A stretch of DNA of 64,000 bases from the NCBI RefSeq assembly GCF_030734285.1, contig NZ_CP132294.1, positions 2,232,001 to 2,296,000 of the forward strand. Reading direction: 5' to 3'. This document shows, in pieces, positions 37,097-50,760 of the stretch. Origin of the DNA: Natronococcus sp. AD-5 (lineage in GTDB: Archaea > Halobacteriota > Halobacteria > Halobacteriales > Natrialbaceae). Numbering within the stretch: the stretch's first letter is position 1; each line of letters begins with the position of its first letter. The notes under the pieces are model-generated. The model saw only the letters and a list, made by a program, of their open reading frames with translations, made no database searches and was not told the origin of the DNA. The translations under genes and the position numbers were made by a program.

Positions 37097-37189
37097 ATGG
37101 AAATGATAGTGCGAGACACTGTCACGTCTCCACGCCGTATTCTGGGGCGGTGGGTCGGTGATCGCGGACCGAACCGAGGTGAACCATGA
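37097..37189 (+). CDS. Short upstream ORF coupled to the AtoE-type gene
   Basis: A 30-codon open frame (MEMIVRDTVTS... ending GPNRGEP) whose TGA overlaps the ATG of the transporter by three bases in ATGA. A T-rich promoter-like stretch (TTTTTTACCC, about 37065-37080) lies just upstream. It could be a translated leader controlling the transporter or a chance frame. I found no similarity to a known protein. Confidence 0.3.
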   Translation: MEMIVRDTVTSPRRILGRWVGDRGPNRGEP

Positions 37190-38613
37190 GCTCGACCGGC
37201 TCGAGCGAACGGGGTGCGATACGCGCCTTTTTCACCGCGCTCGGCGACGCCTCGAGCAGGCTGGTACAGCGCTACCTTCCGGACGCGTTCATCTTCGCGC
37301 TCCTGCTGACGTTTCTCACGATGATCATCGCGGTGCTGGTCACCGACGAGGGGCCGGCCAGCGTCGCGACGCACTGGGGGGCCGGGTTCTGGGAGGTCAT
37401 CGAGTTCTCAATGCAGGCGTCGCTCGCGTTGCTCACCGGCTGGGCGCTCGCCGACTCGCCGCCGATAAAGCGGGCGCTCAGACGGATCGCCGACGTGCCC
37501 GACAGCCAGACGCAGGCGATATTCGTGGTCGCGCTCTGCGGACAGCTTCTCGGGCTGTTCCACTGGGGCGTCGTGCTTATCGCCGGCGCGATCCTCGCGC
37601 GCGAGGTCGGGATCGCGATGGCCGAGAAGGATATCGACGTCCACTACCCGTTGCTCGTCGCGGCCGCCTACGCGGGGCTGCTCCCCTGGCACCAGGGGCT
37701 CTCCGGCGCGGCGCTGTTGCTCGTCGCAACTGAGGGGCACTTCGCCGAGGACGCCACGGGCGTGATCCCCGTTTCGGAGACGATCTTCCACCCGTTCAAC
37801 CTCGCGGTGATCGCCGGGGTCGTCGCAGTCGTCGTGGTCCTCATGCCGCTGATGGCTCCCGAGGAGGAAAACGCCACGGCGGTCCCCGAGGGAACGCTGC
37901 GAGCCGCGCGCGGGGAGAGTACGATGACGGACGGCGGCGAGGTCGAGAAGCCGCATCGAGTCCGGGAATCGTGGCTGAAGGGGCGCCTCCTCGATAGCAA
38001 GCTGATCTGTATCGGGGCCGGCGCGATCATCTGGGCGTACCTCCTCTACCTGTTCGCGACGGAGCCGTTCATGCAGGTGCTGAACATCAACATCCTCATC
38101 TCCGCGATGTTCGGACTGGGCTTTTTCGCGCACGCGTCGCTTCGCAGTTACGTCGACGTCTTCCACGAGGCGATCGAGGGCGCCAGCCAGATCATCATCC
38201 AGTTCCAGTTCTACGGCGGGATCATGGGCATCATGGTCTTCTCGGGGCTGGTCGAGCTGATCGCCGAAACCGCCGCGGCGTACGCGACCGACACGACGTG
38301 GTACCTGTTCGTGTTCGTCTCCGGCGGGATCGTCAACTTCTTCGTTCCCTCGGGCGGCGGCCAGTGGGTCGTCATGGGCGAGATCTACGCGTCGGCGACT
38401 CAGGAGATCGCGGGCACGCAGATGAACCACATGCTGATCGCCTTCGCGATGGGCGATCAATGGACGAACATGATCCAGCCGTTCTGGGCGCTTCCCGTGC
38501 TCGGGATCGCGGGCCTCTCGATCCGCGACATGATGGGCTACGTCGCCGTGCTGTTCGTCTTCAGCGGAATCGTCATGGGAACCGGGACGATCCTCATCGG
38601 GGTGATCGGGTGA
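37186..38613 (+). CDS. Short-chain fatty acid transporter, AtoE/TIGR00366 family (first copy)
   Basis: A 475-residue membrane protein of the AtoE short-chain fatty acid transporter family, thought to carry butyrate or acetoacetate. About ten helices are visible. Family landmarks are the early LPDAFIFALLLTFLTMI, GWALADSPPIKRALR, the middle HYPLLVAAAYAGLLPWHQGLSG, and VSGGIVNFFVPSGGGQWVVMGEIY and QMNHMLIAFAMGDQWTNMIQPFWALPVL in the second half. The second copy follows six bases after its stop. Confidence 0.9.
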   Translation: MSSTGSSERGAIRAFFTALGDASSRLVQRYLPDAFIFALLLTFLTMIIAVLVTDEGPASVATHWGAGFWEVIEFSMQASLALLTGWALADSPPIKRALRRIADVPDSQTQAIFVVALCGQLLGLFHWGVVLIAGAILAREVGIAMAEKDIDVHYPLLVAAAYAGLLPWHQGLSGAALLLVATEGHFAEDATGVIPVSETIFHPFNLAVIAGVVAVVVVLMPLMAPEEENATAVPEGTLRAARGESTMTDGGEVEKPHRVRESWLKGRLLDSKLICIGAGAIIWAYLLYLFATEPFMQVLNINILISAMFGLGFFAHASLRSYVDVFHEAIEGASQIIIQFQFYGGIMGIMVFSGLVELIAETAAAYATDTTWYLFVFVSGGIVNFFVPSGGGQWVVMGEIYASATQEIAGTQMNHMLIAFAMGDQWTNMIQPFWALPVLGIAGLSIRDMMGYVAVLFVFSGIVMGTGTILIGVIG

Positions 38614-38619
38614 TCGACG

Positions 38620-39984
38620 ATGTCGAGTGAAACGTCGACCCCGGTGGAAACCCGGCGAGATCCGTTCGTCCCGGCACTCGGCCAGTACTTTCCGGAGTCG
38701 CTGGTGAGCGCGCTCCTGCTCGCGCTGCTGGCGCTCGTCGCGACCGTTCCGTTCCTCGATCCGATCACCCAGCTCGAGCTGTTCGGCACCGGTTTCTTCG
38801 AGCTCTTCGCCGTCCAGATGCTCCTGATCCTCTTCTGGGTCGTCAGCGCGTCGGTCGTCGAGTCGCCGCGCTTCGGGGCCGTCCTCGACCGGATCGCCGG
38901 CGTCCTGCCCGCGAGTCAGCGGGGGATCATCTTCGCGACCGGCTTCGTCTCCTTGCTGTTCGGCTGGATCAACTGGGCGTTCGGGCTGATCGGCGGCGTC
39001 CTCGTCGGTCAACGGCTCTGTCGGCGCGCTCGAGAGAGCGGAACCGCGGTCCACTACCCGCTCGTCCTGACGGGCGGCCTGCTGGCGCTCGTCCTCACGA
39101 ACCAGGGGCTGTCCAGCCCGGGGGCGCTGATCGTGGCCGACGGGAGCGGACTGGCGAACGTCCTGGTCGACGACGCGGGCGCGATCGCGATGACGGAGTT
39201 CGTGCTCCACCCCGCGAACCTCGTCTCGAGCGCCGTCCTCCTCGTCACGCTCCCGCTGCTCCTCGCCGCGCTCGCGCCGGACGACGAGCGCGAGATCGCG
39301 CCGCTCGACGAGCGAAACGAGATCCTCGAGGGGTCGATCGCCCGGACGCTCGATCACTACTCGCCGAAGGTTCCGCCCGAAGACTGGACGGTCGGCGATC
39401 GCCTCGAGAACTCCCGGCTCATCACCGCGGTCGTGGTCGTCGTCGGCCTCGCCTCCGCCGGCTGGCACTTCGCGACGGGCGGCGCGCTGACGCTCCCGTG
39501 GCTGGCGTTTACGCTGATCGTCCTCGGGATGGCCGCGCAGGGGCCGCCGATGGCCTTCCGGGAGAAAACGGAAGACGCGACGAAGTGGGCGAACCACGTG
39601 GTGATCCCGTTCCTGCTCTACGCGGCCGTCTTCGCGCTGCTCGGCGAGTCGGGGCTGTACGGCGCGATCGGCGACGCGCTCGCCGGCACCGGCCTTCCCT
39701 ACGTGGGTTCGTACGCCGTCGCGTTCGTCCTCGGCCTCCTGATTCCCGACCCGGGATCGCTCTGGGTGCTCCACGGGCCGGTCGTCGCCGCCGCGGAGCT
39801 CGACGTCGTCGTCTCGCTGATCGCGGTGATGTACGGCGCGGGGCTCTCGAACCTCTGGCTCGGGTTCCTGTTCGCGGGCATCCTCTCGATTCCCGGCTTC
39901 GAGTGGCGGGAGTTCGTCCGGTACGCCGCCGTCGTGACCGTCTACGTGACGGGCCTCGTGCTGGGGCTCCTGCTGCTCCTCTAG
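38620..39984 (+). CDS. Short-chain fatty acid transporter, AtoE family (second copy)
   Basis: A 454-residue homologue of the first AtoE gene, with the same start YFPESLVSALLLALLAL and a shared middle HYPLVLTGGLLALVLTNQGLSSPG. It lacks the conserved NFFVPSGGGQW and GDQWTNMIQPFWA segment of the first, having instead IPDPGSLWVLHGPVV and MYGAGLSNLWLGFLFAG. It may transport a different acid or form a heteromer with the first copy. They almost certainly share one transcript. Confidence 0.85.
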   Translation: MSSETSTPVETRRDPFVPALGQYFPESLVSALLLALLALVATVPFLDPITQLELFGTGFFELFAVQMLLILFWVVSASVVESPRFGAVLDRIAGVLPASQRGIIFATGFVSLLFGWINWAFGLIGGVLVGQRLCRRARESGTAVHYPLVLTGGLLALVLTNQGLSSPGALIVADGSGLANVLVDDAGAIAMTEFVLHPANLVSSAVLLVTLPLLLAALAPDDEREIAPLDERNEILEGSIARTLDHYSPKVPPEDWTVGDRLENSRLITAVVVVVGLASAGWHFATGGALTLPWLAFTLIVLGMAAQGPPMAFREKTEDATKWANHVVIPFLLYAAVFALLGESGLYGAIGDALAGTGLPYVGSYAVAFVLGLLIPDPGSLWVLHGPVVAAAELDVVVSLIAVMYGAGLSNLWLGFLFAGILSIPGFEWREFVRYAAVVTVYVTGLVLGLLLLL

Positions 39985-40069: not shown

Positions 40070-41029
40070 ATGACTCGCGAGATTCTGGTCGCCGGCGAGA
40101 CGCTGATCGACTTCCTCCCCGAGCGACCCGGACCGATCTCGAGCGTCGAGCAATTCGACCGACGGCCGGGCGGCGCGCCCGCGAACGTCGCCGTCGCGCT
40201 CGCCCGCCTCGAGCAAACGCCGCTGTTCTGGACCCGCGTCGGCGACGACCCGTTCGGCCGCTACCTCCGGAAGACGCTCGACGAGCACGGCCTCCCGGAC
40301 CGGTTCGTCGAACGCGATCCGGACGCGAAGACGACGCTCGCGTTCGTCACCCACGACGAGACGGGCGACCGCGAGTTCTCCTTCTACCGCGACGCGACGG
40401 CGGACACCCGCTTCCAGCCCGGTCGGGTCGACGGCACGACGCTCGAGGACCTCGAGTGGGTCCACGCCGGCGGCGTCGCCCTCTCGAGCGGCTCCTCGCG
40501 GGAGGCCACGCTGGACCTGCTCGAGCGCGCCGCCAGCCGGGACTGTACGGTCTCGTTCGATCCGAACGCCAGGCCGGAGCTGTGGCCCGACGAGGGCGTC
40601 TTCCGAGAAGGCGTTCGAGAGGCGCTCGAGCACGTCGACGTCCTGAAGGCGGCCGAGGAGGAACTCGAGGCGCTCGGATTCGAGGGCGACGGCGTCGAGG
40701 AACTGGCTCGAGGCGTCCTCGACGTAGACGGCGGGCCGTCGACGGTCTTCGCCACCCGCGGCGGCGAGGGCGCGATCGCCGTCGCCGGCGGCGACGCGGC
40801 CTGGTCGGGGACCGCCAGCCACCCCGGCTACGAGGCCGACGTCGTCGACACGACCGGCGCGGGCGACGCGTTCGTCGCCGGGACGATCGCCGCCCTCTCC
40901 GAAGGGCGGGACGTAGAGGAGACGCTCGCGTTCGCCAACGCCGTCGGGGCGGCCGCGACGACGGCCGCGGGTGCGATGGCGGCGCTTCCGGATCGGGAAG
41001 CCGTGCGGGCGATCAGACGGACCGAGTGA
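40070..41029 (+). CDS. PfkB family carbohydrate kinase
   Basis: A 319-residue PfkB (ribokinase-fold) sugar kinase. The first signature is RPGGAPANVAVALARL (about residues 36-50) and the second, with the catalytic Asp, is DTTGAGDAFVAGTIAALS. Fructokinase- and 2-keto-3-deoxygluconate kinase-like members look alike. A TATA-like ATTATC lies 28 nt before the ATG. It precedes the sugar ABC cluster by 1.3 kb, with a minus-strand gene between, so it may phosphorylate the imported sugar or its product. Confidence 0.9.
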   Translation: MTREILVAGETLIDFLPERPGPISSVEQFDRRPGGAPANVAVALARLEQTPLFWTRVGDDPFGRYLRKTLDEHGLPDRFVERDPDAKTTLAFVTHDETGDREFSFYRDATADTRFQPGRVDGTTLEDLEWVHAGGVALSSGSSREATLDLLERAASRDCTVSFDPNARPELWPDEGVFREGVREALEHVDVLKAAEEELEALGFEGDGVEELARGVLDVDGGPSTVFATRGGEGAIAVAGGDAAWSGTASHPGYEADVVDTTGAGDAFVAGTIAALSEGRDVEETLAFANAVGAAATTAAGAMAALPDREAVRAIRRTE

Positions 41030-41086
41030 GCGGCGCACCCGCTCGAGTCGGCGAGGCTCCGACAACGCCCGCCGGGAGACCGAGCG

Positions 41087-41920
41087 CTATTCGAAGAGGG
41101 CGAATTGGACCCGACAGGAAGGACAGCGGAGGACGGTCCGGGGGGCGCGCGTCGCCGACCGGGGCGTCCCGCAGCAGCCGTGTTCCGCCCCTTCGACGAG
41201 TTCCTCCTCGCACTCGGGACACGTCTCGAGGAACGTACACAGCGGCTCCGCGGCGAGCCGACGGACCTCCTGCGGGACGCCGGCGTCGGTCAGGGCGCGG
41301 ACGGCGGCGACTTCCGCGACGGCGACCGGGCGCTGGAGCCACGTCTCGTCGGTCGCGGCGCCCGACTCCCCCTCGAGAACGACGTGCGTGCGTCCGCGCG
41401 AGGTGACGATCGAGCGGTCGGCCGCTTCCGTCACGACGGCGGCGGTGGCGTCCGCGAGGTCGCGGTCGCTCGCGGCGGCGAGGTCGGCCATCTCCTCGTG
41501 CCACCGCCGTTCGAACGGCCGCGAGAGGAACAGCTGATCCGCCTCCTCGTCGACCTCGACGATCCCGGTCTCGACCAGCGTCGCGAGGACCGCCTCGCCG
41601 TCGACGGACCGGTCGATCGCCGCGTCGTCCGCGAGGCCGTCGGCGAGCGATCCCGCCTCGGCTCTCGGCTCGTCGTGGAACGGATCCCGGGGGAGGACCG
41701 CGACCAGACGCGGCGCGAACTCGGGCGTGTACGGGACGAGGTACCCCCGGAGCCAGATTCCGGCCGCGCCCAGCGCCGCCACGGCGACCGCCACCGGCGG
41801 GGAGACGACCGCGACCGCGATCGACGCGATCCCGAGAAGGAGGACGTTTACGACCGTGCAGAGCCAGCAGCGGTTCTCGCCCGTGTACTCGGGCCGTTTG
41901 ATCGTGCGAAACGTCGACAT
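41087..41920 (-). CDS. Membrane protein with C-terminal zinc ribbon, unknown
   Basis: A 277-residue protein. The N-terminus has Cys-x-x-Cys (RCWLCTVVN), then two hydrophobic helices (VNVLLLGIASIAVAVVS and VAVAVAALGAAGIWLRGYLV). The middle is acidic with a winged-helix-like segment (DGEAVLATLVETGIVEVDEEADQLFLSRPF). The C-terminus carries several cysteines (ETCPECEEEL, HGCCGTP, LRCPSCRVQF), two probable zinc sites. It faces away from the binding protein gene. I recognise no family. Confidence 0.75.
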   Translation of the reverse strand: MSTFRTIKRPEYTGENRCWLCTVVNVLLLGIASIAVAVVSPPVAVAVAALGAAGIWLRGYLVPYTPEFAPRLVAVLPRDPFHDEPRAEAGSLADGLADDAAIDRSVDGEAVLATLVETGIVEVDEEADQLFLSRPFERRWHEEMADLAAASDRDLADATAAVVTEAADRSIVTSRGRTHVVLEGESGAATDETWLQRPVAVAEVAAVRALTDAGVPQEVRRLAAEPLCTFLETCPECEEELVEGAEHGCCGTPRSATRAPRTVLRCPSCRVQFALFE

Positions 41921-42352
41921 TGCACCCCCGTTTCGGAGGCGGCGACTTGAGCGTTCCGTCCGCGCGGGCCGCTATCGGGAGGTCGCGCGAATCGTAGAGC
42001 GACCCGTGAGAGCGCTGGTACACCGGTATTACCGATCGTCGAGCGACTGGCCGACGGCGTCCCTCCGCGGTCTCGGACCGCGGCCGTTCTCGAACGGAAC
42101 GGCGGCGTCGAGGTAATACGTAATTGTCTGTGCCGTAGCATTCGACGGGCGGTGCCGGCCGTCGACGGTCACGACGACCGTCCGAAGCCTCACGGCAGCT
42201 TACCGAGATATCACCGATTACCGCACGCGCGAATCGAAAGAAACGCTTCGGACGCCGCCGGCGCCTGGCGATCTTTCGAATGATGCGTTTAGTCACAACG
42301 AATGTAGTAAACATCCGTAATTATAAATAGTAAAAGTACGTTATTCCGGCCA
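41921..42352. other. 432-base intergenic region before the sugar ABC cluster
   Basis: This stretch shows no gene I can support. Its right part (about 42280-42350) is AT-rich and holds the binding-protein promoter, with TTATAAATA at 42321-42329 about 27 nt before the ATG at 42353. The left part (41921-42280) is GC-rich and may contain an operator. Confidence 0.6.
42320..42330 (+). promoter_or_regulatory. TATA box of the sugar ABC operon
   Basis: ATTATAAATAG at 42320-42330 is a strong archaeal TATA match. Its centre is about 28 nt before ATG 42353, suggesting a leaderless mRNA starting at that ATG and not at the ATG at 42368. Confidence 0.7.
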
Positions 42353-43885
42353 ATGCCAGGGGTTAACATGCAAGGTACGGATTCACAACGCACCGGTGTG
42401 TCACGACGGCGCTTCGTAAGGGGGGTCGGCGCAACCGGTGCGGCAGCCGGTTCGATCGCGGCGGCCGGCTGTGCGGCCGCTCCGTGGGGAGGGAGCGACG
42501 ACGACGTTCCCGAGGGTGCCGAGGACTACGATACGGTCATCAGCTGGCACGGCGGCTTCGCCGACGACGAGTCCGACGACGTCAAAGACGACGTTCGCGA
42601 GGCGCTGTGGGACGCGGGGCTGTCCAAGGAGATCTACGTCGACATCCAGCAGTCGTCCGATTCGACCGACGACGTGCTGGACCAGTACACCACCTGGCTG
42701 TCGGCGGGTCGATCGGATCCGGACATCCTCAACATGGACTCGGGGTGGACGATTCCGTTCATCGAGCGCGGCCAGCTCGGGCGCATCGACGAGTACATGT
42801 CCGAAGACCGGATCGCGGAGATCGAAGAGGATTACTTCCCGGCGAGCGTCGACTCCGTGCGCGACGAGGACGGCAATCTCCACGGCCTTCCTGTGTTCGT
42901 CGACCTCGGCCTGATGCACTACCGGAAGGACCTCGTCGAGGCGGCGGGCTACGATCCCGACGGCGAGGGGTGGGCCACGGAGCCGCCGACCTGGCAGGAG
43001 TTCTCGGAGGCCGTCGGCGCCGCGATGGAGGAAGACGACGGGATCGAGAACGGCTTCACCTTTCAGGCGGACAACTACGAGGGGCTGTCCTGCTGTAACT
43101 TCAACGAGTGGATCACCACGTGGGGCGGCGCGTACTTCGGCGACCACGAGAACCTCCACGCCAACGTCGGCGACCGGCCGATCACCGTCGAGGACGAGCC
43201 GGTACTCGACGCGATTCGAATGATCCGCACCTTCATTCACGGCAGCGACGCCGACGACACGCTCGACGACTTCGAGGGCGGCATCTCGACGGAGGCCGTC
43301 CTGGGGTGGAACGAGGACCCCTCGCTCGGTCCGTACGGCGACGGCCGGGTGATCGCGAACCGCAACTGGTCGTACGCGGCCGCGATGCACGCGCAGGACG
43401 ACGACGAGGATGGCGCCGGCTTCGGCGAGGACCACGGCGTGATGCCGATCCCGTACGCGGTGACCGAGGACGAAGCCGAGTACGAGGGCACCGGCGGCAC
43501 CGCCGCGGCGCTCGGGGGCTGGAACGCCGTTCCGAACCCGAACTCCGAGAACCTCGACGCCGTCGCCGAGGTCCTCGAGGCGCTGATGGACCCCGAGTTC
43601 CAGCTGTTCGTCTTCGAACACCCCCTGATCGGGAACATCCCGCCGCGCTCGGAGGCTCTCGAGGACGACGACGCCGAGGACATCCCCGTCATGGGTCGGT
43701 ACGTCGACTCGATCCGGGTGGCCGGCGAGACCGCGACGGCGCGCCCCGTCACGTCGCTTTGGCCCGACCAGTCGAGCGCGACTGCCAGCCGCGTCCACTC
43801 GGCGCTGCAGGGTGACGAGACGCCCGAGGACGCGATGAGCGACCTCGCCGACGACCTCGAGCAACTCGAGCAAGAGGCGGACTGA
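42353..43885 (+). CDS. Sugar ABC transporter substrate-binding lipoprotein
   Basis: A 510-residue extracellular solute-binding protein. The signal has a twin-arginine motif (SRRRFVRGVG, residues 17-26) and a lipobox ending in C40 (AAAGC), so it is exported folded and anchored to the membrane. The mature part has the family features GGFADDES, WTIPFIERGQL, GLPVFVDLGLMHYRKDL and GNIPPRSEAL. The ligand is a sugar or polyol but is not identified. The start ATG at 42353 is supported by the TATA box; an ATG at 42368 is the alternative. Confidence 0.9.
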   Translation: MPGVNMQGTDSQRTGVSRRRFVRGVGATGAAAGSIAAAGCAAAPWGGSDDDVPEGAEDYDTVISWHGGFADDESDDVKDDVREALWDAGLSKEIYVDIQQSSDSTDDVLDQYTTWLSAGRSDPDILNMDSGWTIPFIERGQLGRIDEYMSEDRIAEIEEDYFPASVDSVRDEDGNLHGLPVFVDLGLMHYRKDLVEAAGYDPDGEGWATEPPTWQEFSEAVGAAMEEDDGIENGFTFQADNYEGLSCCNFNEWITTWGGAYFGDHENLHANVGDRPITVEDEPVLDAIRMIRTFIHGSDADDTLDDFEGGISTEAVLGWNEDPSLGPYGDGRVIANRNWSYAAAMHAQDDDEDGAGFGEDHGVMPIPYAVTEDEAEYEGTGGTAAALGGWNAVPNPNSENLDAVAEVLEALMDPEFQLFVFEHPLIGNIPPRSEALEDDDAEDIPVMGRYVDSIRVAGETATARPVTSLWPDQSSATASRVHSALQGDETPEDAMSDLADDLEQLEQEAD

Positions 43886-43916
43886 CGACTCCAACCCGGT
43901 TCACCAGACTACTATC

Positions 43917-44888
43917 ATGGCAACAGATAATCGGAGTGCATCGGGCGCATCGACTGTTACGCGTCCGCACGTAGCCGTCGCTAACAAACTCGAGACCGTC
44001 AGCGAGGACGCGTTCGCGTACGTCCTGCTGGTACCGACGTTCCTGCTGATTACGGTCGTCGCCATCTACCCGCTGCTCGAGACGTTCCGGCTGTCGCTGT
44101 ACACGGACCAGCTCGGAAGCGTGGGCGTCGGCGATTTCGTCGGCCACGCGAACTACGTCGACGTGCTCGCCGGCGCACGGGACGTCGTACTGCTGTCGGG
44201 GTTCTGGTACGGCGTCGCGATCACGCTCGGGTTCGCGCTCGTGAGCGTGTTCTTCGAGACGCTTCTCGGGCTCGGGATGGCGCTCGTCCTCGACAAGGAG
44301 TTCCGCGGGCGGGCGTTCGTTCGCATGGCGATCCTCATCCCGTGGGCCGTTCCGGTCGTCATCCAGGGAATGATCTTCTACCTGCTGTTCGAGCCCTCGA
44401 TCGGCTTCGCGGTGCGGCCGCTCCAGGAGCTCGGGGTGATGTCCTCGACGCCGCTGACGACGACTCGAGACGCGTTCGTCCTGCTGATCACCGCCGACGT
44501 CTGGAAGACGACGGCGTTCATGGCGCTGATCATCCTCGCCGGCCTCCAGAGCATCGATCGGAGCCTCTACGAGGTCGGTCGGGTCGCGGGCGCGACGCGC
44601 TGGCAGCGGTTCGTGATGATCACGTTCCCGCTCGTCCTGCCCGCGGTCCTCGTCGCGATGCTGTTCCGGACGCTGCAAGCGATGCAGGTGTACGGTATCG
44701 TCGTGACGATGTCGGGGTGTTCGACGGTGCCGTCGCTCACCTGCATGGTCGTCGAGTCGTTCCGGGCCAATCGGTTCGCGACCTCGGCGACCATCGCGTT
44801 CCTCACGGCGGGAATCATCTCCATCATTATCGGCGTCTACCTGGTGAAGTTCGTCGACAGCCTCAGGGAGATCGGAGGTGACGTCTGA
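43917..44888 (+). CDS. Sugar ABC transporter permease 1
   Basis: A 323-residue inner-membrane permease with six helices. The EAA loop that contacts the ATPase is visible as LYEVGRVAGATRWQRFVMITFPL near residue 220. A soluble N-terminus of about 35 residues precedes helix 1. Its TGA overlaps the next ATG by four bases, so the second permease is coupled to it. It imports the ligand of the upstream binding protein. Confidence 0.93.
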   Translation: MATDNRSASGASTVTRPHVAVANKLETVSEDAFAYVLLVPTFLLITVVAIYPLLETFRLSLYTDQLGSVGVGDFVGHANYVDVLAGARDVVLLSGFWYGVAITLGFALVSVFFETLLGLGMALVLDKEFRGRAFVRMAILIPWAVPVVIQGMIFYLLFEPSIGFAVRPLQELGVMSSTPLTTTRDAFVLLITADVWKTTAFMALIILAGLQSIDRSLYEVGRVAGATRWQRFVMITFPLVLPAVLVAMLFRTLQAMQVYGIVVTMSGCSTVPSLTCMVVESFRANRFATSATIAFLTAGIISIIIGVYLVKFVDSLREIGGDV

Positions 44889-45823
44889 TGGCGGCCGAAA
44901 CCGGCCCCGTGACCCAGTCGGAGGACGATCTCAGTACGCTTCAGCGATGGGTCCAGCGCAGCATCCGCGATCCGCAGCTGGCCTACCGCGCGATGTTCTA
45001 CACGGCGATGATCTTCTTCCTCGTCTTCACGCTGTTCCCGTTCTACTGGCTGCTGGTGCTCGCGCTCACGCCGAACCGCCTCATCTTCAATATGGGGATC
45101 CTTCCCGAGGGATTCAATATCAGCGTGTTCTGGGACGTGTTTCAGCAGGTGCCGATACACCTGTACATCCTCAACAGCTTCGTCATCGCCATCACGACGA
45201 CGATCATCGTCCTGCTCGTCGCGAGCCTGGCCGGCTACGTCTTCGGGCGACTCCGGTTCCGCGGGAAGGGGCCGCTGATGTTGCTCATCCTGGTCATCTC
45301 GTTCTTCCCGCCGGCGGCGTTCATCCTGCCGCTGTTCCGCATCTTCACCGGCAACGTCGTGGTGATGGGACGGACGACTCCCGACCTGTTCAACACGGCG
45401 GGAGCGATGATAATTCCCTTCAGCGCGCTCATGCTGCCGCTGTCGATTTTCATCCTCACGACGTTCTACGCGCAGATCCCGGACGGCCTCGAGGACGCCG
45501 CCCGGGTCGAGGGGACGACCAGAATCGGGGCGCTGATCCGGGTGATCGTGCCCCTCTCGATGCCCGGGATATCGACCGCCGGCATCCTCACGTTCATCGC
45601 CGTCTACCAGGAGTTCTTCTTCTCGTTCCTGATGACCGACGGCCGGGTGGAGAACTGGGCGCCGCTGGTCTGGGGCATCCTCAACTTCCAGGGGCGGTAC
45701 TCGGATCTCTACAACTACATGGCGGCGGCGAGCATCATCGGCGTCGTCCCGGTCGCGCTGCTCGTCGTCATCGCACAGGAGAAAATCGTCAGCGGACTCA
45801 CGCAAGGAGCGCTCAAGGAGTGA
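44888..45823 (+). CDS. Sugar ABC transporter permease 2
   Basis: A 311-residue six-helix permease with the EAA loop GLEDAARVEGTTRIGALIRVIVPLSMPG near residue 200 and the typical WYWLLVLALTP-like early segment (FYWLLVLALTPNR). It pairs with permease 1 to form the channel. The ATPase gene follows five bases after the stop. Confidence 0.93.
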   Translation: MAAETGPVTQSEDDLSTLQRWVQRSIRDPQLAYRAMFYTAMIFFLVFTLFPFYWLLVLALTPNRLIFNMGILPEGFNISVFWDVFQQVPIHLYILNSFVIAITTTIIVLLVASLAGYVFGRLRFRGKGPLMLLILVISFFPPAAFILPLFRIFTGNVVVMGRTTPDLFNTAGAMIIPFSALMLPLSIFILTTFYAQIPDGLEDAARVEGTTRIGALIRVIVPLSMPGISTAGILTFIAVYQEFFFSFLMTDGRVENWAPLVWGILNFQGRYSDLYNYMAAASIIGVVPVALLVVIAQEKIVSGLTQGALKE

Positions 45824-45828
45824 TCGAC

Positions 45829-47016
45829 ATGGGTAAGGTAACACTCGAACACGTCACGAAACGCTACGAAGACGTCGTCGCGGTCGACGATATGAACCTC
45901 GAGATCGAGGACGGCGAGTTCGTCTGTCTCGTCGGCCCCTCGGGCTGCGGGAAGTCGACCACGCTCGAATCGATCGCGGGACTGACCACGCCGACGGAGG
46001 GTCGCATCGAAATCGCCGACCGGGAGGTGACGAACCTGCCGCCGAAGGACCGGGACATCGCGATGGTGTTCCAGAACATCGCGCTGTTCCCGCACATGGA
46101 CGTCTACGACAACATCAGCTTCGGCCTCCGGCTTCGCGACTACGAGCAGGAGGAGATCGACCGGGCGGTCGAGGAAGCGGCGAACATCGTCCAGCTCGAG
46201 GAGATGGAACGCCGCCAGCCGAGCGAACTCTCCGGCGGGCAGCGCCAGCGCGTCGCCATCGCCCGCGCGATCGTTCGCGATCCGGAGGTGTTCCTGATGG
46301 ACGAGCCGCTGGCGAACTTGGACGCGAAGCTGCGCGTCCACATGCGGACCGAACTCCAGCGCCTGCACAAGGAGCTGGACGTGACGACGATCTACGTCAC
46401 CCACGACCAGGCCGAGGCGATGACGATGTCCGACCGGATCGCCGTCATCGACGGCGGGGAGCTCCAGCAGATCGCGCCGCCGCTGGTCTGCTACAACGAG
46501 CCCGCCAACCGGTTCGTCGCGGGCTTCATCGGCTCGCCCTCGATGAACTTCGTCGAGGGCGAACTCGTCGGCGGCGGCCTCGAGACGCCGAACTTCACGG
46601 TCGCGGTCGATCCGAGCCGGATCGACGGCGCCTCGGTCGGCGACGCGGTCACGCTCGGCGTCCGGCCCGAGGACGTCTACCTCGCGGAGAACGAACGGTA
46701 CGTGTCGGCGCCGGGCGACCCCATCGAGGCCACGACGGACGTCCTCGAGCCGATGGGCGACGAAGTGTTCGTCTACCTGTTGTTTGAAGAGAGCGGCGGT
46801 CGGACGATGGACCAGCAGGGCTCGCGCGGGTCGGGGGAACTGCTGATGAGCGTCGATCCCGACACGGACCTCGAGGAGGAGGAGACGATCGAGGTCGTCC
46901 TCGACCACTCCAGGCTCCACCTCTTCGACGCCGAGACGGGAGCGGCGATCACCCACGGCGTCGAGGACCTCTCGGACGCACGCGTCGCCGTCGCGGACGC
47001 GGAGGGCGACAGCTAA
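45829..47016 (+). CDS. Sugar ABC transporter ATP-binding protein
   Basis: A 395-residue MalK/UgpC-type ATPase. It has Walker A GPSGCGKSTTLE, Q-loop VFQNIALFPHM, signature LSGGQRQRVAIARA, Walker B EVFLMDEPLANLD and H-loop VTHDQAEAM. A regulatory TOBE-like C-terminal domain of about 150 residues follows, with an insertion rich in Gly/Ser (GRTMDQQGSRGSGELLMS). It powers import by the two permeases. The ATG at 45829 is five bases after the permease 2 stop. Confidence 0.95.
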   Translation: MGKVTLEHVTKRYEDVVAVDDMNLEIEDGEFVCLVGPSGCGKSTTLESIAGLTTPTEGRIEIADREVTNLPPKDRDIAMVFQNIALFPHMDVYDNISFGLRLRDYEQEEIDRAVEEAANIVQLEEMERRQPSELSGGQRQRVAIARAIVRDPEVFLMDEPLANLDAKLRVHMRTELQRLHKELDVTTIYVTHDQAEAMTMSDRIAVIDGGELQQIAPPLVCYNEPANRFVAGFIGSPSMNFVEGELVGGGLETPNFTVAVDPSRIDGASVGDAVTLGVRPEDVYLAENERYVSAPGDPIEATTDVLEPMGDEVFVYLLFEESGGRTMDQQGSRGSGELLMSVDPDTDLEEEETIEVVLDHSRLHLFDAETGAAITHGVEDLSDARVAVADAEGDS

Positions 47017-47053
47017 TCGCGACCAGCCTTACACCACGCACACCCCACTACAC

Positions 47054-47257
47054 ATGGTAGAACCGATCGCAATCGCGTACGTCACCGCCGTGACCGTCCT
47101 GTTTTTCTTCTGGGTCTACGGCATCGTATCGTTCGTCCTCGACCTGAAGAACAAGATCGTCCCGGCCGCCGTCCGGTACGTGCGGGGCCGACGCAAACAG
47201 AAGGAGAAACGGGAACGCGAACGGGAGCGCGAAGAGCGCGAACGACAGCTCCACTGA
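47054..47257 (+). CDS. Small membrane protein with charged tail
   Basis: A 67-residue protein. Residues about 5-32 are hydrophobic (AIAYVTAVTVLFFFWVYGIV and on), then a Lys/Arg/Glu-rich tail (RGRRKQKEKRERERERE and on) likely to be a cytoplasmic helix or coil. It lies 37 bases after the ATPase stop on the same strand, so it may belong to the sugar operon. I do not recognise a family. Confidence 0.6.
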   Translation: MVEPIAIAYVTAVTVLFFFWVYGIVSFVLDLKNKIVPAAVRYVRGRRKQKEKREREREREERERQLH

Positions 47258-47500
47258 CGAGAACCGAGTCTCCGGCGTCGACGCCGTCTGGACGATCGGC
47301 TTCGACGACCGGGTCCAGAACGCACCCTCGTTTTGCCCCTCTCAGAATTCGTCGGCCCTCTCGGCCAGCGAACCGTTCCGAACGCAGTCGAAGGAAATTC
47401 GGAGCGACGGGAAAAGCGGGGCGAGCAGCCGCGCAGTCACCGGAATTCGACGAACGGTGACACCCGGATTTATGACCCTCGCGGCCGTCGTTCCGGCCGT

Positions 47501-48469
47501 ATGGATATCGGTGTTCACACCCCACCGCTGGCAGACGAATCGCTCGAGGGCGCGCTCGCGTACCTCTCCGATCTCGGCGTCGACGCGATCGAACCCGGCG
47601 TCGGCGGCTTCCCCGGCGACGACCACCTCGTCCGAGCGGAGTACTTAGACGACGAGGACGCCCAGGTCGAACTCGAGGAGCTGCTCGGGGAGTTCGACAT
47701 GCGGATCAGCGCGCTCGCGACGCACAATAATCCGCTCCACCCCGACGAAGCGCAGGCCGAGGAGGCCGACACCGAGCTCCGGGAGGCGATCCAGCTCGCC
47801 GACCAACTGGACGTGAACACGGTGACCTGCTTCTCCGGGCTCCCGGCCGGCGGCCCCGACGACGAGGTGCCCAACTGGATCACGGCCCCCTGGCCGACCG
47901 AACACGCCGACGCCCACGAGTACCAGTGGGAGGTCGCCGTCGAGTACTGGTCCGACCTCGCGGGGTTCGCGGACGACCGCGGCGTCGACCTCGCGGTCGA
48001 GATGCACCCGAACATGCTGGTCTACGAGCCCCACGGGATGGCCCGCCTGCGCGAGGAGACGAACGACCGCGTCGGCGCGAACTTCGACCCCTCGCACCTC
48101 TACTGGCAGAACATCTCGATCACCGACGCGGTCCGCTACCTCGGCGAGCGCGACGCGATCCACCACTTCCACGCCAAGGACACGAAGATCTACGAGGAGC
48201 AGGCCCGCGAGAAGGGCGTCCTCGATACGACCGCCTACGACGACGAGCCGAACCGCTCGTGGCTGTTCCGCTCGGTCGGGTACGGCCACGGCGAGGCCCA
48301 CTGGAAGGACATCGTCTCGGCGCTGCGGATGGTCGACTACGACGGCGCGCTCTCGATCGAGCACGAGGACTCGCTGACGAGTTCCCGCGAGGGGCTCGAG
48401 AAGGCGATCGAACTCCTCCAGCGGGCGGTCTTCCGGGAACAGCCCGGGGAGGCGTACTGGGCCGAATAA
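47501..48469 (+). CDS. Sugar phosphate isomerase/epimerase (xylose isomerase-like TIM barrel)
   Basis: A 322-residue TIM-barrel enzyme of the AP endonuclease 2/xylose isomerase-like fold. It has the early MDIGVHTPPL, AIEPGVGGFPGD, ALATHNNPLHPD, and the metal ligands Glu/Asp/His in AVEMHPNMLVY, GANFDPSHLYWQ, HHFHAKDTKIYE and LSIEHEDSL. It is likely an isomerase, epimerase or IolE/IolI-like dehydratase with a divalent metal. It follows the ABC cluster. Confidence 0.88.
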   Translation: MDIGVHTPPLADESLEGALAYLSDLGVDAIEPGVGGFPGDDHLVRAEYLDDEDAQVELEELLGEFDMRISALATHNNPLHPDEAQAEEADTELREAIQLADQLDVNTVTCFSGLPAGGPDDEVPNWITAPWPTEHADAHEYQWEVAVEYWSDLAGFADDRGVDLAVEMHPNMLVYEPHGMARLREETNDRVGANFDPSHLYWQNISITDAVRYLGERDAIHHFHAKDTKIYEEQAREKGVLDTTAYDDEPNRSWLFRSVGYGHGEAHWKDIVSALRMVDYDGALSIEHEDSLTSSREGLEKAIELLQRAVFREQPGEAYWAE

Positions 48470-48572
48470 CGCGCGCCAGCCGCACACCCGGAACGCCGGG
48501 CTGACCCGCCGTCAATCCGGCGAGATCCTCGAGACGGAAACTTCTAACTACATCTCTCGTGAACCTTCGGTC

Positions 48573-49694
48573 ATGACGCTCGAAGTCGGCGTACTCGGCT
48601 ATCGATTCATGGGGAAAGCCCACGCGAACGCACTGGCGCGGCTGCCGATGTTCTTCCCGGACGCCCCGGACGTCGAGCGCAGCGTCCTCGTCGGTCGCGA
48701 CGAGGAGGCGCTCGGCGAGGCGGCCGACCGGCTCGGCTTCGCGGAGATCGCGACTGACTGGCGCGACGTCGTCGACGACGTCGACGTCTTCTACAACCTC
48801 GGTCCGAACCACGTCCACGCCGAACCCTCGATCGGCGCGCTCGAGGCCGGCACGCCCGTCTTCTGTGAGAAACCCCTCGCGCCGACCCTCGAGGAAGCCG
48901 AAGAGATGGCCGACGCGGCCCGCGAGTCCGGCGTCCCCCACGGCTGCGCGTTCAACTACCGGTTCGTCCCGGCGATCCGGTACGCGAAGCGCCTGCTCGA
49001 GGACGGCGAACTCGGCGAGATCCGCCACGTCCGCGGGCGTTACCTCCAGGACTGGCTGGTCGATCCCGAGGCGCCGTGGGCCTGGCGGCTCGACGAGGAC
49101 ATGGCCGGATCGGGCGTGCTGGGCGACCTGGGCGCGCACACGGTCGATCTCGTGCGCTTCCTGGTCGGCGACGACGACCTCGCGGGCGACGTCGAGCGCC
49201 TCAGCGGCCACCTCCGGACGTTCGTCGACGAGCGTCCCGTCGAGGGGGGCGACGAGACTCGACCCGTAACCGTCGACGACGCCTACTCGGCTCAACTCGA
49301 GTTCGAAAACGGTGCGATGGGGACGCTCGAGGCCTCCCGCTTCGCAACGGGACACAAGAACGACCACACGATCGAGATCCACGGCTCCGACGGGAGCCTG
49401 CGGTTCTCGCTCGAGCGCCTGAACGAGCTCGAACTGCTCCGGAAGGACGAGAATCGCGGCTACGAGACGATCCTCGTCACCGACGAAGACGATCCGTACG
49501 TCGACCACTGGTGGCCGCCGGGCCACGTGATCGGCTGGGAGCACACCTTCGTCCACGAGAACTACGAGTTCCTCTCCGCGGTCGACGAGGGCGGCGCGTT
49601 CGCCCCGAGCTTCGAGGACGGACTGGCCGCCCAGCGCGTGCTCGCGGCGATCGAAGACAGCGACGAGCGCGGCGAGTGGATCGCGCTCGAGTGA
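48573..49694 (+). CDS. Gfo/Idh/MocA family oxidoreductase
   Basis: A 373-residue NAD(P)-dependent dehydrogenase of the Gfo/Idh/MocA family, which oxidises sugars, inositols or their amino or acid derivatives. It has the Rossmann start VLGYRFMGKAHANAL, the EKP motif (FCEKPLAPTLEEAEE), NYRFVPAIRYAK, and GDLGAHTVDLVRFLVGDDD with the catalytic His. It belongs with the TIM-barrel enzyme and the next gene in one cluster. Confidence 0.92.
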   Translation: MTLEVGVLGYRFMGKAHANALARLPMFFPDAPDVERSVLVGRDEEALGEAADRLGFAEIATDWRDVVDDVDVFYNLGPNHVHAEPSIGALEAGTPVFCEKPLAPTLEEAEEMADAARESGVPHGCAFNYRFVPAIRYAKRLLEDGELGEIRHVRGRYLQDWLVDPEAPWAWRLDEDMAGSGVLGDLGAHTVDLVRFLVGDDDLAGDVERLSGHLRTFVDERPVEGGDETRPVTVDDAYSAQLEFENGAMGTLEASRFATGHKNDHTIEIHGSDGSLRFSLERLNELELLRKDENRGYETILVTDEDDPYVDHWWPPGHVIGWEHTFVHENYEFLSAVDEGGAFAPSFEDGLAAQRVLAAIEDSDERGEWIALE

Positions 49695-49788
49695 TTTCGG
49701 CTCGGTTTCCACCCCTCGCTTTCGATCGCGAGCGCCGTCGCGGACGATACTACTATCGGCGAGATCCGCGAACGAACCGACCGGACTG

Positions 49789-50760
49789 ATGACGGACACC
49801 ATTCTCGTTACCGATTTCGACTTCCCGGGTCTCGACGTCGAGCGCCGCGTCGTCGGCGGACGGGACGCGGAGATCGTCGACGCGCAGGCGGAAACGGCCG
49901 CCGAGGTTATCGAGGCCGCCCGCGAGGCCGACGCCGACGCGTTACTCGTCCAGTACGCACCCATCGACGAGCGGGTGCTCGACGAACTCGACGTCCGGGC
50001 CGTCGGCCGGTACGGAATCGGCGTCGACACGGTCGACCTCGAGGCCGCCACCGACAACGGCGTCGTCGTGGTCAACGTTCCCTCCTACTGCGAGGACGAG
50101 GTCGCGACGCACGCGATCGCGCTGCTGTTCGCCTGCGTTCGGAAGACGGCGCTGTACGATCGGGCGATCGACGACGGCACCTGGGACTGGACGATCGGCG
50201 CGCCGATCCACCGACTGCCGGGAAAGACGCTCGGCTTCGCCGCGTTCGGAAAGATCCCGCGGCGGATCGCCGACCGGCTCGCGGGCTTCGAGTTCGAACT
50301 CGTCGCGTACGATCCCTACCAGTCCGCGTCCGATCTCGCCGAGTACGGCGTCGAGAAGGTCTCGTTCGACGGCCTGCTCGAGCGAGCGGATATCGTCTCG
50401 ACCCACGCGCCGCTGACCGAGGAGACCCGGGAGCTGTTCGACGCCGAGGCGTTCGCGGCGATGAACGACGACGCGATCCTGCTCAACACCGCTCGAGGCG
50501 AAGTCGTCGACGTCGACGCGCTGGCGGCGGCGCTCGAGGAGGACGAACTCGCTGCTGCGGGCCTGGACGTGCTGCCGAACGAACCGCCGGAGGACTCGCC
50601 GCTGGTCGGTCGCGACGACGTCGTCCTCACCCCGCACGTCGCGTGGTACTCCGAAGAATCGTACGTCGACCTCCGCGAAACCGTAACTCGAGACGTCCTG
50701 TCCGTACTGAACGGCGAGCGACCCGAGAACCCGGTCAACGAGGACGTCCTCCCGGACTGA
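49789..50760 (+). CDS. D-2-hydroxyacid dehydrogenase (CtBP-like)
   Basis: A 323-residue NAD-dependent dehydrogenase of the D-isomer 2-hydroxyacid family. It has GRYGIGVDTVDLEAAT, the nucleotide site GFAAFGKIPRR, the catalytic Arg in LLNTARGEVVDV, Glu in LPNEPPEDS and His in LTPHVAWYSEES. The nucleotide motif departs from the usual GxxGxGxxG: the fourth Gly is Ala and the ninth is Pro. It probably reduces or oxidises an acid such as a sugar-derived keto acid. It shares strand with the two genes before it. Confidence 0.88.
   Translation: MTDTILVTDFDFPGLDVERRVVGGRDAEIVDAQAETAAEVIEAAREADADALLVQYAPIDERVLDELDVRAVGRYGIGVDTVDLEAATDNGVVVVNVPSYCEDEVATHAIALLFACVRKTALYDRAIDDGTWDWTIGAPIHRLPGKTLGFAAFGKIPRRIADRLAGFEFELVAYDPYQSASDLAEYGVEKVSFDGLLERADIVSTHAPLTEETRELFDAEAFAAMNDDAILLNTARGEVVDVDALAAALEEDELAAAGLDVLPNEPPEDSPLVGRDDVVLTPHVAWYSEESYVDLRETVTRDVLSVLNGERPENPVNEDVLPD

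Follow-up and report, generated by a model that had tools for sequence, protein, structure and literature searches.

A haloarchaeal sugar locus with a probable role in the import and oxidative cleavage of an alpha-glucosyl disaccharide

The locus and its genes

The stretch of DNA considered here, referred to as the window, comprises 64,000 nucleotides (C1:2232001-2296000) of the 5.17 Mb genome of the haloarchaeon Natronococcus sp. AD-5, and its subject is a group of sugar genes at positions 40070-50760 in which an importer, a TIM (triosephosphate isomerase) barrel and two dehydrogenases lie together (Table 1). An earlier note on this DNA had listed a PfkB kinase, an ATP-binding cassette (ABC) importer consisting of a binding protein, two permeases and a MalK-type ATPase, a xylose-isomerase-like (AP_endonuc_2) barrel, a Gfo/Idh/MocA dehydrogenase and a D-2-hydroxyacid dehydrogenase, together with one gene on the opposite strand. 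All of these are present and belong to the families that were named, but a 67-residue open reading frame (ORF) ahead of the barrel had been missed. From the binding protein onward the genes are separated by 31 bp, a 1-bp overlap, and then 5, 37, 243, 103 and 94 bp. Nine of the proteins were scanned against Pfam and NCBIfam. The importer belongs to the CUT1 family, as its MalK-type ATPase fits the motif G[IV]RPE[DH] and both permeases match PF00528; the motif definition was taken from the literature (PMC11519228). The kinase finds fructokinase 5ey7 as its best sequence match in the PDB (E 1.5e-44), and its top NCBIfam model is likewise fructokinase, at 206 bits where the cut-off is 450.

Table 1. 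Genes of the locus, with positions in the window
Feature	Position	Strand	Evidence
PfkB-family kinase, fructokinase-like	40070..41029	+	PF00294, 220 bits; GGAPAN and DTTGAGDAF motifs
Protein of unknown function, conserved in haloarchaea	41087..41920	-	No family in Pfam or NCBIfam
Solute-binding protein with Tat-type (twin-arginine) signal and lipobox-like motif	42353..43885	+	PF01547; RRRFV at 18, AAGC at 37
ABC permease 1 (MalF/UgpA type)	43917..44888	+	PF00528; NCBIfam UgpA 72 and MalF 66 bits, both below cut-off
ABC permease 2 (MalG type)	44888..45823	+	PF00528; NCBIfam MalG 86 bits, below cut-off
MalK-type ABC ATPase, CUT1 family	45829..47016	+	PF00005, OB_MalK; Walker A, LSGGQ, GVRPED at 277
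Small protein of 67 residues, one hydrophobic stretch and charged tail	47054..47257	+	ORF call
TIM barrel, putative Mn-dependent 3-keto-glycoside lyase / 2-hydroxy-3-keto-glucal hydratase	47501..48469	+	PF01261; predicted fold
GFO1, Gfo/Idh/MocA dehydrogenase, levoglucosan-dehydrogenase-like, putative glycoside 3-dehydrogenase	48573..49694	+	NCBIfam and PDB matches
D2H, D-2-hydroxyacid dehydrogenase (PGDH/glyoxylate-reductase-like), accessory	49789..50760	+	PF02826, PF00389

The TIM barrel

The start of the barrel was set at 47501 because a Met stands there in all 42 aligned relatives, although a longer frame is open from 47333. Among the matches listed, the closest barrels in named records are those of Natronococcus pandeyae (93%) and N. 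amylolyticus (90%). The AlphaFold model (predicted local distance difference test score, pLDDT, 94.8) is nearest in fold to SCO6571 (2zds, Z 34.6) and to AtHYD (8ro4, Z 32.7 over 294 residues at 2.1 A), with the next match at 27.6 and the YcjR epimerase at 25.4. A sequence search of the PDB also returned SCO6571 and the 2-hydroxy-3-keto-glucal hydratase AtHYD, with a psicose epimerase as a weak match; over the fold alignment the window barrel and AtHYD are 22% identical. Five residues, E167, H169, D196, H224 and E287, do not vary across 42 sequences from archaea and bacteria and align with AtHYD, so that the barrel has both the fold and the metal and catalytic residues of an AtHYD-like hydratase. 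The alignment with AtHYD, together with what is known of the family, suggests E167, D196, H224 and E287 as the metal ligands. In AtOGE, Mn is held by His132, Asp163, His189 and Glu233, with His134 as the catalytic residue, and the CGEs have Glu at the first of these places (PMC10628242). OGE- and CGE-type barrels were not among the 50 fold matches listed, which excludes nothing.

It is of some consequence for the proposal made below that LgdB2, a barrel of the bacterial levoglucosan route, carries out the elimination as well as the hydration, with Mn assisting the hydration (PMC7676230), and therefore one barrel can suffice. The elimination may instead be the work of ThuA or of another PF01261 barrel of the genome, which has one copy of the window's barrel at E 1e-20 and six other PF01261 matches, one of them with a stop.

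The dehydrogenases

For GFO1 the top NCBIfam model is levoglucosan dehydrogenase, with 333.5 bits (the next scores 115). Its best relatives in the PDB are 4h3v (E 2.5e-102) and 6a3f (E 2.5e-85), and the latter, recorded as a putative dehydrogenase, we take to be the levoglucosan dehydrogenase structure. The protein has EKP at 99, LQDW at 158 and GVLGDLGAHTVD from 181, and the LQDW stretch is common to 4h3v and 6a3f. A GH3-glycosidase-like gene (glycoside hydrolase family 3, assigned by eye) precedes GFO1 in the genome G197 (L139, 6278-8830), and an M24-peptidase-like gene adjoins GFO1 in one genus (L134, L136 and L137, with Pfam run on the L137 copy); the latter gene (cluster 58) is also seen in three Haloarcula/Halomicrobium loci, L053, L063 and L073.

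A second Gfo/Idh/MocA enzyme, GFO2, is encoded beside the barrel in many relatives. It has DgpA as its best PDB match (E 1.1e-44) and shares an RRxGxPG stretch with E. coli YcjS. In the window's own genome the best GFO2 match lies at C1:998619-999662, in a different operon (L130, C1:990000-1008000) that holds a TrmB regulator, a binding protein, permeases and an ATPase with no barrel, and is thus complementary to the window locus. The sole ThuA match of the genome (C1:750409-751050) is some 1.5 Mb away from the window locus; beside it, in divergent orientation, is a Gfo/Idh gene with a score of 380 bits against GFO2 (the two at 6886-9092 of L154, which is C1:742001-760000). Haloferax volcanii has ThuA as well. 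ThuB is presumably a Gfo/Idh enzyme as well, and the two genes are possibly an archaeal ThuA/ThuB pair. The earlier note had called the cluster a complete one for sugar import and oxidation; import and oxidation are borne out by the families, but completeness is not, with GFO2 in another operon and the ThuA/ThuB-like pair at about C1:748.9-751.1 kb. Another candidate for the cleavage step, a 3-keto-disaccharide hydrolase of the BT2157 type, was dropped, as the genome has no match to PF06439 at E 0.001 (the control was positive in 4 of 14 named genomes).

The D-2-hydroxyacid dehydrogenase, D2H, scores 231 bits with the PGDH model, below the cut-off, and has the motifs NTARG, DVLPNEP and TPHV, in which we assume the usual roles for the Arg, Glu and His. 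In seven of nine genomes of the window's genus it is found no more than 0.7 kb from GFO1, even where the barrel is elsewhere, and no other genus was seen to have it next to GFO1; two of these seven carry an in-frame TGA in the gene, for which a sequencing error is possible, and in the genome G264 a remnant of 52 residues follows GFO1. At E 1e-60, 34 of 111 genomes of the window's family have D2H-like proteins, with 42-60% identity outside the close set, and among the 55 haloarchaeal loci compared below the gene was found near the barrel in one, that of N. pandeyae (L037). Since it is rarely near the barrel, and in three relatives is interrupted by a stop or cut down to a remnant, D2H stands outside the conserved pathway, and as a pathway enzyme it was set aside for the same breakage and because it meets no specific family at cut-off. 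It could conceivably serve in NAD recycling or act on a glycerate aglycone, which is a guess.

The neighbourhood in related genomes

The surroundings of the barrel were compared in 55 haloarchaeal and 25 bacterial loci, the best 80 of at least 564 relatives of the barrel, each taken as a stretch of up to 10 kb on either side (some end at contig ends) and searched with per-gene thresholds. Genes of the relatives were called with a home-made codon-position caller that overlooks some genes, such as the barrel in L050, L052, L053, L058 and L079 and GFO1 in L137 and L145, and the locus counts therefore rest on frame searches. GFO1 is found within 10 kb of the barrel in 38 of the 55 haloarchaeal loci, Haloferax, Haloarcula and Halorubrum among them, a complete importer in 22, GFO2 in 19, PfkB in eight and D2H in one. 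Where the importer is complete, 18 of the 22 loci have GFO2, 11 have GFO1 and eight have PfkB. The recurrent unit combines a CUT1 importer with a TIM barrel and two Gfo/Idh/MocA dehydrogenases, GFO1 and the DgpA/YcjS-like GFO2. A common gene order in the Natrialbaceae (L042, L047, L090) is PfkB, an opposite-strand gene, TrmB, the binding protein, two permeases, the ATPase, a small protein, GFO2, the barrel and GFO1. Compared with this order the window is without TrmB and GFO2 and has D2H in addition; when the window was searched for remnants of these genes, with two TrmB proteins and a GFO2 as queries, the sole match was GFO1, as a distant relative of GFO2. GFO2-type genes with 100 bits or more are also present in 18 of the 25 bacterial loci, and the neighbourhood of GFO2 and barrel is therefore common to haloarchaea and Bacillota.

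The full set listed by the earlier note recurs outside the window in one locus of the 55, that of N. pandeyae (L037), which has a different importer and an extra TrmB regulator and major facilitator superfamily (MFS) gene. The gene set is not a fixed unit. The clustering of importer and barrel is not due to chance, because a complete importer shares the stretch with the barrel in 22 of the 55 loci. The comparison with N. pandeyae also reveals how the locus has changed. The flanking proteins are close, with 86% identity for PfkB, 93% for the barrel, 94% for GFO1 and 90% for D2H, but from the opposite-strand gene through the small protein (41087-47257) the values are 42, 40, 51, 61, 70 and 57%. 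The same block is 82-93% identical between the window and G264 (L146), the small protein being compared over 45 of 67 residues. Close flanks around a distant middle mean that some 6 kb have been exchanged in situ, either in the ancestry of the window and G264 or in the ancestry of the others, and the barrel and GFO1 took no part in the exchange. In L146 no TrmB gene was called, and an aldo/keto reductase gene is in its place.

As to the other genes of the neighbourhood, the 67-residue protein has a counterpart in 10 of the 55 haloarchaeal loci, which together with the window form a cluster of 11 members, and 16 of the 55 have a homologue (130 bits or more) of the opposite-strand protein, which has cysteine pairs in its C-terminal part. 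Two tandem short-chain fatty acid transporters (PF02667) lie directly upstream of the PfkB gene at 37186-39984. An MFS transporter gene (PF07690) stands between the barrel and GFO1 in L131 (10260-11426) and, judged by length, in L146 (12155), though not in the window.

Co-occurrence across the Halobacteria

The barrel was found in 293 of 391 sampled genomes of Halobacteria. Its association with the other genes was assessed in 20 genomes that have it, hand-picked outside the window's family, and in 20 of the 98 without a match, at cut-offs of E 1e-90 for GFO1 and GFO2, 1e-12 for ThuA and 1e-80 for 2-keto-3-deoxygluconate (KDG) kinase, the latter a control for general sugar catabolism. With kinship among the genomes ignored in all the Fisher tests, GFO2-type genes were found in 19 of 20 barrel-positive and none of 20 barrel-negative genomes (p 3e-10), ThuA in 15 and none (p 8e-7), GFO1 in 20 and nine (p 1e-4), and the control in 19 and 13 (p 0.04), or 18 and 11 when only KDG kinases above the curated cut-off are counted. 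Within the window's family, 105 of 111 genomes have a GFO2-type gene and 107 have GFO1. The three family members without the barrel, all of one genus (G204, G214 and G215), also lack GFO2 and have kept GFO1, and the remaining three genomes without GFO2 (G391, G394 and G395) are assemblies that are 53-70% complete.

An expectation of the earlier note, that the genes would not each turn up alone in relatives, failed in part: GFO1 is present without barrel and GFO2 in nine of the 20 barrel-negative genomes, and D2H is away from GFO1 in two of the nine genomes of the window's genus.

The importer and its likely substrate

The binding protein has as its best PDB match the trehalose/maltose-binding protein 1eu8 of Thermococcus litoralis (E 5.6e-28), followed by MalE3 (6dtq) and further ABC sugar-binding entries such as 6jar and 6j9w, a group that we take to be a Thermus alpha-glycoside binder. 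A GGW motif is invariant in six aligned haloarchaeal binding proteins and aligns with a Trp of 1eu8. Judged from the alignment, where its index is 294 and a numbering offset of one is assumed, this Trp is taken to be Trp295 of the ligand site (PMC13311272). As PfkB is nearest to fructokinases, a fructose-containing disaccharide would suit the locus, yet PfkB is present in just eight of the 22 importer loci. A TrmB regulator adjoins the importer in relatives, which may hint at the substrate. In addition, ThuA is followed immediately by a 42% identical barrel in a Listeria plasmid record, where the group is flanked on either side by Gfo/Idh genes. Such comparisons of sequence, of the binding protein, the fructokinase-like PfkB and the ThuA neighbourhood in Listeria taken together, favour an alpha-glucosyl disaccharide.

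A proposed route

The locus probably serves the import and the oxidative, non-hydrolytic cleavage of an alpha-glucosyl disaccharide by way of a 3-keto intermediate. We infer the successive steps, and the direction in which each dehydrogenase would work, from the families, the predicted fold, the conserved residues, the linkage and the co-occurrence that were described above. A Tat-exported lipoprotein and the CUT1 importer would take up an intact glycoside of disaccharide size, most likely an alpha-glucoside, for instance trehalose, sucrose or one of the isomers of sucrose. The NAD-dependent GFO1, or GFO2 of the second operon, would then oxidise the C3 hydroxyl of the glucosyl ring, by which the C2 proton becomes acidic. 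The barrel, with a divalent metal at E167/D196/H224/E287 and H169 as the base, might next expel the partner sugar by beta-elimination, add water to the resulting 2-hydroxy-3-keto-glucal to give 3-keto-glucose, or both. Reduction of 3-keto-glucose to glucose would fall to the other Gfo/Idh enzyme, and, since this would use the NADH of the oxidation step, the net cleavage would be redox-neutral. A ketose product, if there is one, could be phosphorylated by PfkB.

Several observations weigh against this proposal, the strongest being the occurrence of GFO1 in genomes without the rest, the absence of an equivalog match in the NCBIfam rows listed and the dispersed layout. The nine barrel-negative genomes with GFO1 mean that the enzyme has another role there or everywhere. 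None of the rows listed for the nine proteins is at cut-off (for the ATPase, 25 of 187 rows were listed), and GFO1 reaches about half of the levoglucosan dehydrogenase cut-off of 650. The dispersal is evident in the window's own genome, and GFO2 is missing from the nearest loci as well (L037-L039 and L146); moreover, PfkB and D2H are rare near the barrel, as counted above, and the scheme assigns no step to D2H. The barrel family is also not uniform, as the closest match in fold, SCO6571, has no enzyme function in its listing and carries Asp in the position of H224, and a rhizobial relative is, by eye, without the catalytic His. As to co-occurrence, the cut-off for GFO2 admits a ThuB-like paralogue (that of 380 bits in the window's genome); the match reaches 450 bits or more in 18 of the 20 barrel-positive genomes, and the one of 393 bits in G069 may be such a paralogue. 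ThuA is missing in five of the 20 barrel-positive genomes, and the 40 genomes are not phylogenetically independent, with the barrel-negative ones poorer in sugar genes overall, as the KDG kinase control indicates.

Alternative explanations

The same chemistry could act on another substrate, such as levoglucosan, a beta-glucoside or a glycoside of a compatible solute (glucosylglycerol or glucosylglycerate), an alternative that deserves weight even if it is on balance unlikely. GFO1 is nearest to levoglucosan dehydrogenase and follows the GH3-like gene in G197, the D-2-hydroxyacid dehydrogenase could be accounted for by a glycerate aglycone, and the importer block varies among relatives while the enzymes stay, so that several substrates may feed one enzyme set. 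The trehalose/maltose-type binders that best match the binding protein and the co-occurrence of ThuA with the barrel argue against such a substrate, however, as do the large shortfall of GFO1 from the levoglucosan equivalog cut-off and the single barrel of the locus where the levoglucosan route has two. GFO1 and D2H might also be a separate two-gene unit that came to adjoin importer and barrel by chance in this lineage, in keeping with their closeness in the window's genus, where in four of the seven genomes the barrel is on another contig or far off, and with the GFO1 genes of barrel-negative genomes. That is unlikely, for GFO1 accompanies the barrel in most haloarchaeal loci and in every barrel-positive genome of the test set, and it was kept in the three relatives where D2H has a stop or is a remnant.

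The order of genes in ycjQRS of E. coli, with an ABC importer, a dehydrogenase, an AP_endonuc_2-like barrel and a Gfo/Idh dehydrogenase, raises the question of whether oxidation at C3 is followed by epimerisation at C4 and re-reduction, with no cleavage at all. GFO2 does resemble YcjS. The idea is nonetheless quite improbable, as the barrel is closer in fold to AtHYD than to YcjR, whose Glu-Pro-Leu replaces the Glu-Met-His of the window barrel (placed by eye), leaving no His two residues past the first Glu ligand, and as YcjQ matches zinc-type dehydrogenases and not Gfo/Idh enzymes. An inositol pathway, which the earlier note had thought conceivable, is scarcely credible: GFO1, the barrel and PfkB do match the NCBIfam equivalogs IolG, IolE and IolC, and IolE is even the top NCBIfam row for the barrel, but the scores of 115, 35 and 186 bits are far below the cut-offs of 355, 290 and 300. 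Levoglucosan dehydrogenase outscores IolG on GFO1, and fructokinase IolC on PfkB, the barrel is structurally nearest to AtHYD and SCO6571, and no other Pfam family of the inositol pathway is present among the nine proteins. The suggestions of an amino-sugar or sugar-acid pathway were rejected as well, no family match at cut-off speaking for them and the best matches being to enzymes of glycoside C3 oxidation.

Comparison with known systems

Oxidative routes of this kind are known in bacteria, and each shares some features with the window locus. The rhizobial thuEFGKAB genes for trehalose breakdown combine an importer and its binding protein with the degradation genes thuA and thuB (PMC6683767). 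The likeness consists of ThuA with an adjoining Gfo/Idh gene in the window's genome, the co-occurrence of ThuA with the barrel and a trehalose-type binding protein, the latter recognised by sequence through 1eu8 and not by comparison with ThuE itself. ThuA and ThuB are not in the same operon here, though, and the window locus has an AtHYD-like barrel and a levoglucosan-dehydrogenase-like enzyme in place of any ThuA/ThuB-like gene. LgdA-LgdB1-LgdB2-LgdC of Bacillus smithii S-2701M includes a C3 dehydrogenase, a reductase and barrels of the "sugar phosphate isomerase" type that carry out elimination and hydration, with ABC importer genes nearby (PMC7676230). It differs in having two barrels, LgdB1 and LgdB2, to the one of the window locus, where, in addition, the second dehydrogenase is in another operon and the binding protein is of the trehalose/maltose type.

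With the AtOGE/AtHYD system of Agrobacterium and its Gfo oxidoreductase the window barrel shares the AtHYD fold and aligned residues, as well as the metal and His pattern of AtOGE and the CGEs, but the first oxidation is there catalysed by a flavoenzyme (PMC10628242), and the identity to AtHYD is low, as given above. The E. coli ycjMNOPQRSTUV cluster has the same order of importer, dehydrogenase, barrel and Gfo/Idh gene, except that its barrel is a 4-epimerase without the catalytic His and that phosphorylases and a phosphoglucomutase are part of the cluster. A haloarchaeal example is the mannitol/sorbitol route of Haloarcula hispanica, in which a CUT1 importer feeds a fructose-phosphorylating kinase (ketohexokinase); oxidation is there due to polyol dehydrogenases of the MDR (medium-chain dehydrogenase/reductase) superfamily, and the available part of that account describes no barrel with a Gfo/Idh enzyme (PMC11519228). 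The statement that no known haloarchaeal pathway has this gene set is consistent with the literature found, even though the kind of pathway is familiar from bacteria in the levoglucosan, thuEFGKAB and 3-keto-glucoside routes.

Implications for haloarchaeal sugar metabolism

The cleavage of disaccharides by prior oxidation is known from soil and gut bacteria, and a description of such a route in haloarchaea was not found in the open-access literature searched. The chemistry as such is known from the lgd, thu, AtOGE/AtHYD and ycj systems of bacteria. Single-protein GH4 (glycoside hydrolase family 4) enzymes of related chemistry are annotated in haloarchaea (PMC3102087), and the route proposed here, if true, would be the first multi-enzyme 3-keto-glycoside route in Archaea. 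In the parts available, the haloarchaeal literature found treats fructose, polyols and pentoses, and disaccharide breakdown is missing from it. The wide distribution of the barrel and its tie to GFO2-type genes may point to a main route that has been hidden by annotation at the family level, with the plasmid records listed labelling such genes "sugar phosphate isomerase/epimerase" and "Gfo/Idh/MocA family oxidoreductase".

A wider and more tentative idea, with a little less than even odds, is that in most haloarchaea a shared enzyme core, made up of the barrel and two C3 dehydrogenases and often ThuA, replaces a glycosidase and splits disaccharides with oxidation, elimination/hydration and reduction divided among separate proteins, and that the importer block is swapped around this core, so that the importer sets the diet. 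A fixed core with an exchangeable importer would explain how these organisms change their diet without new enzymes.

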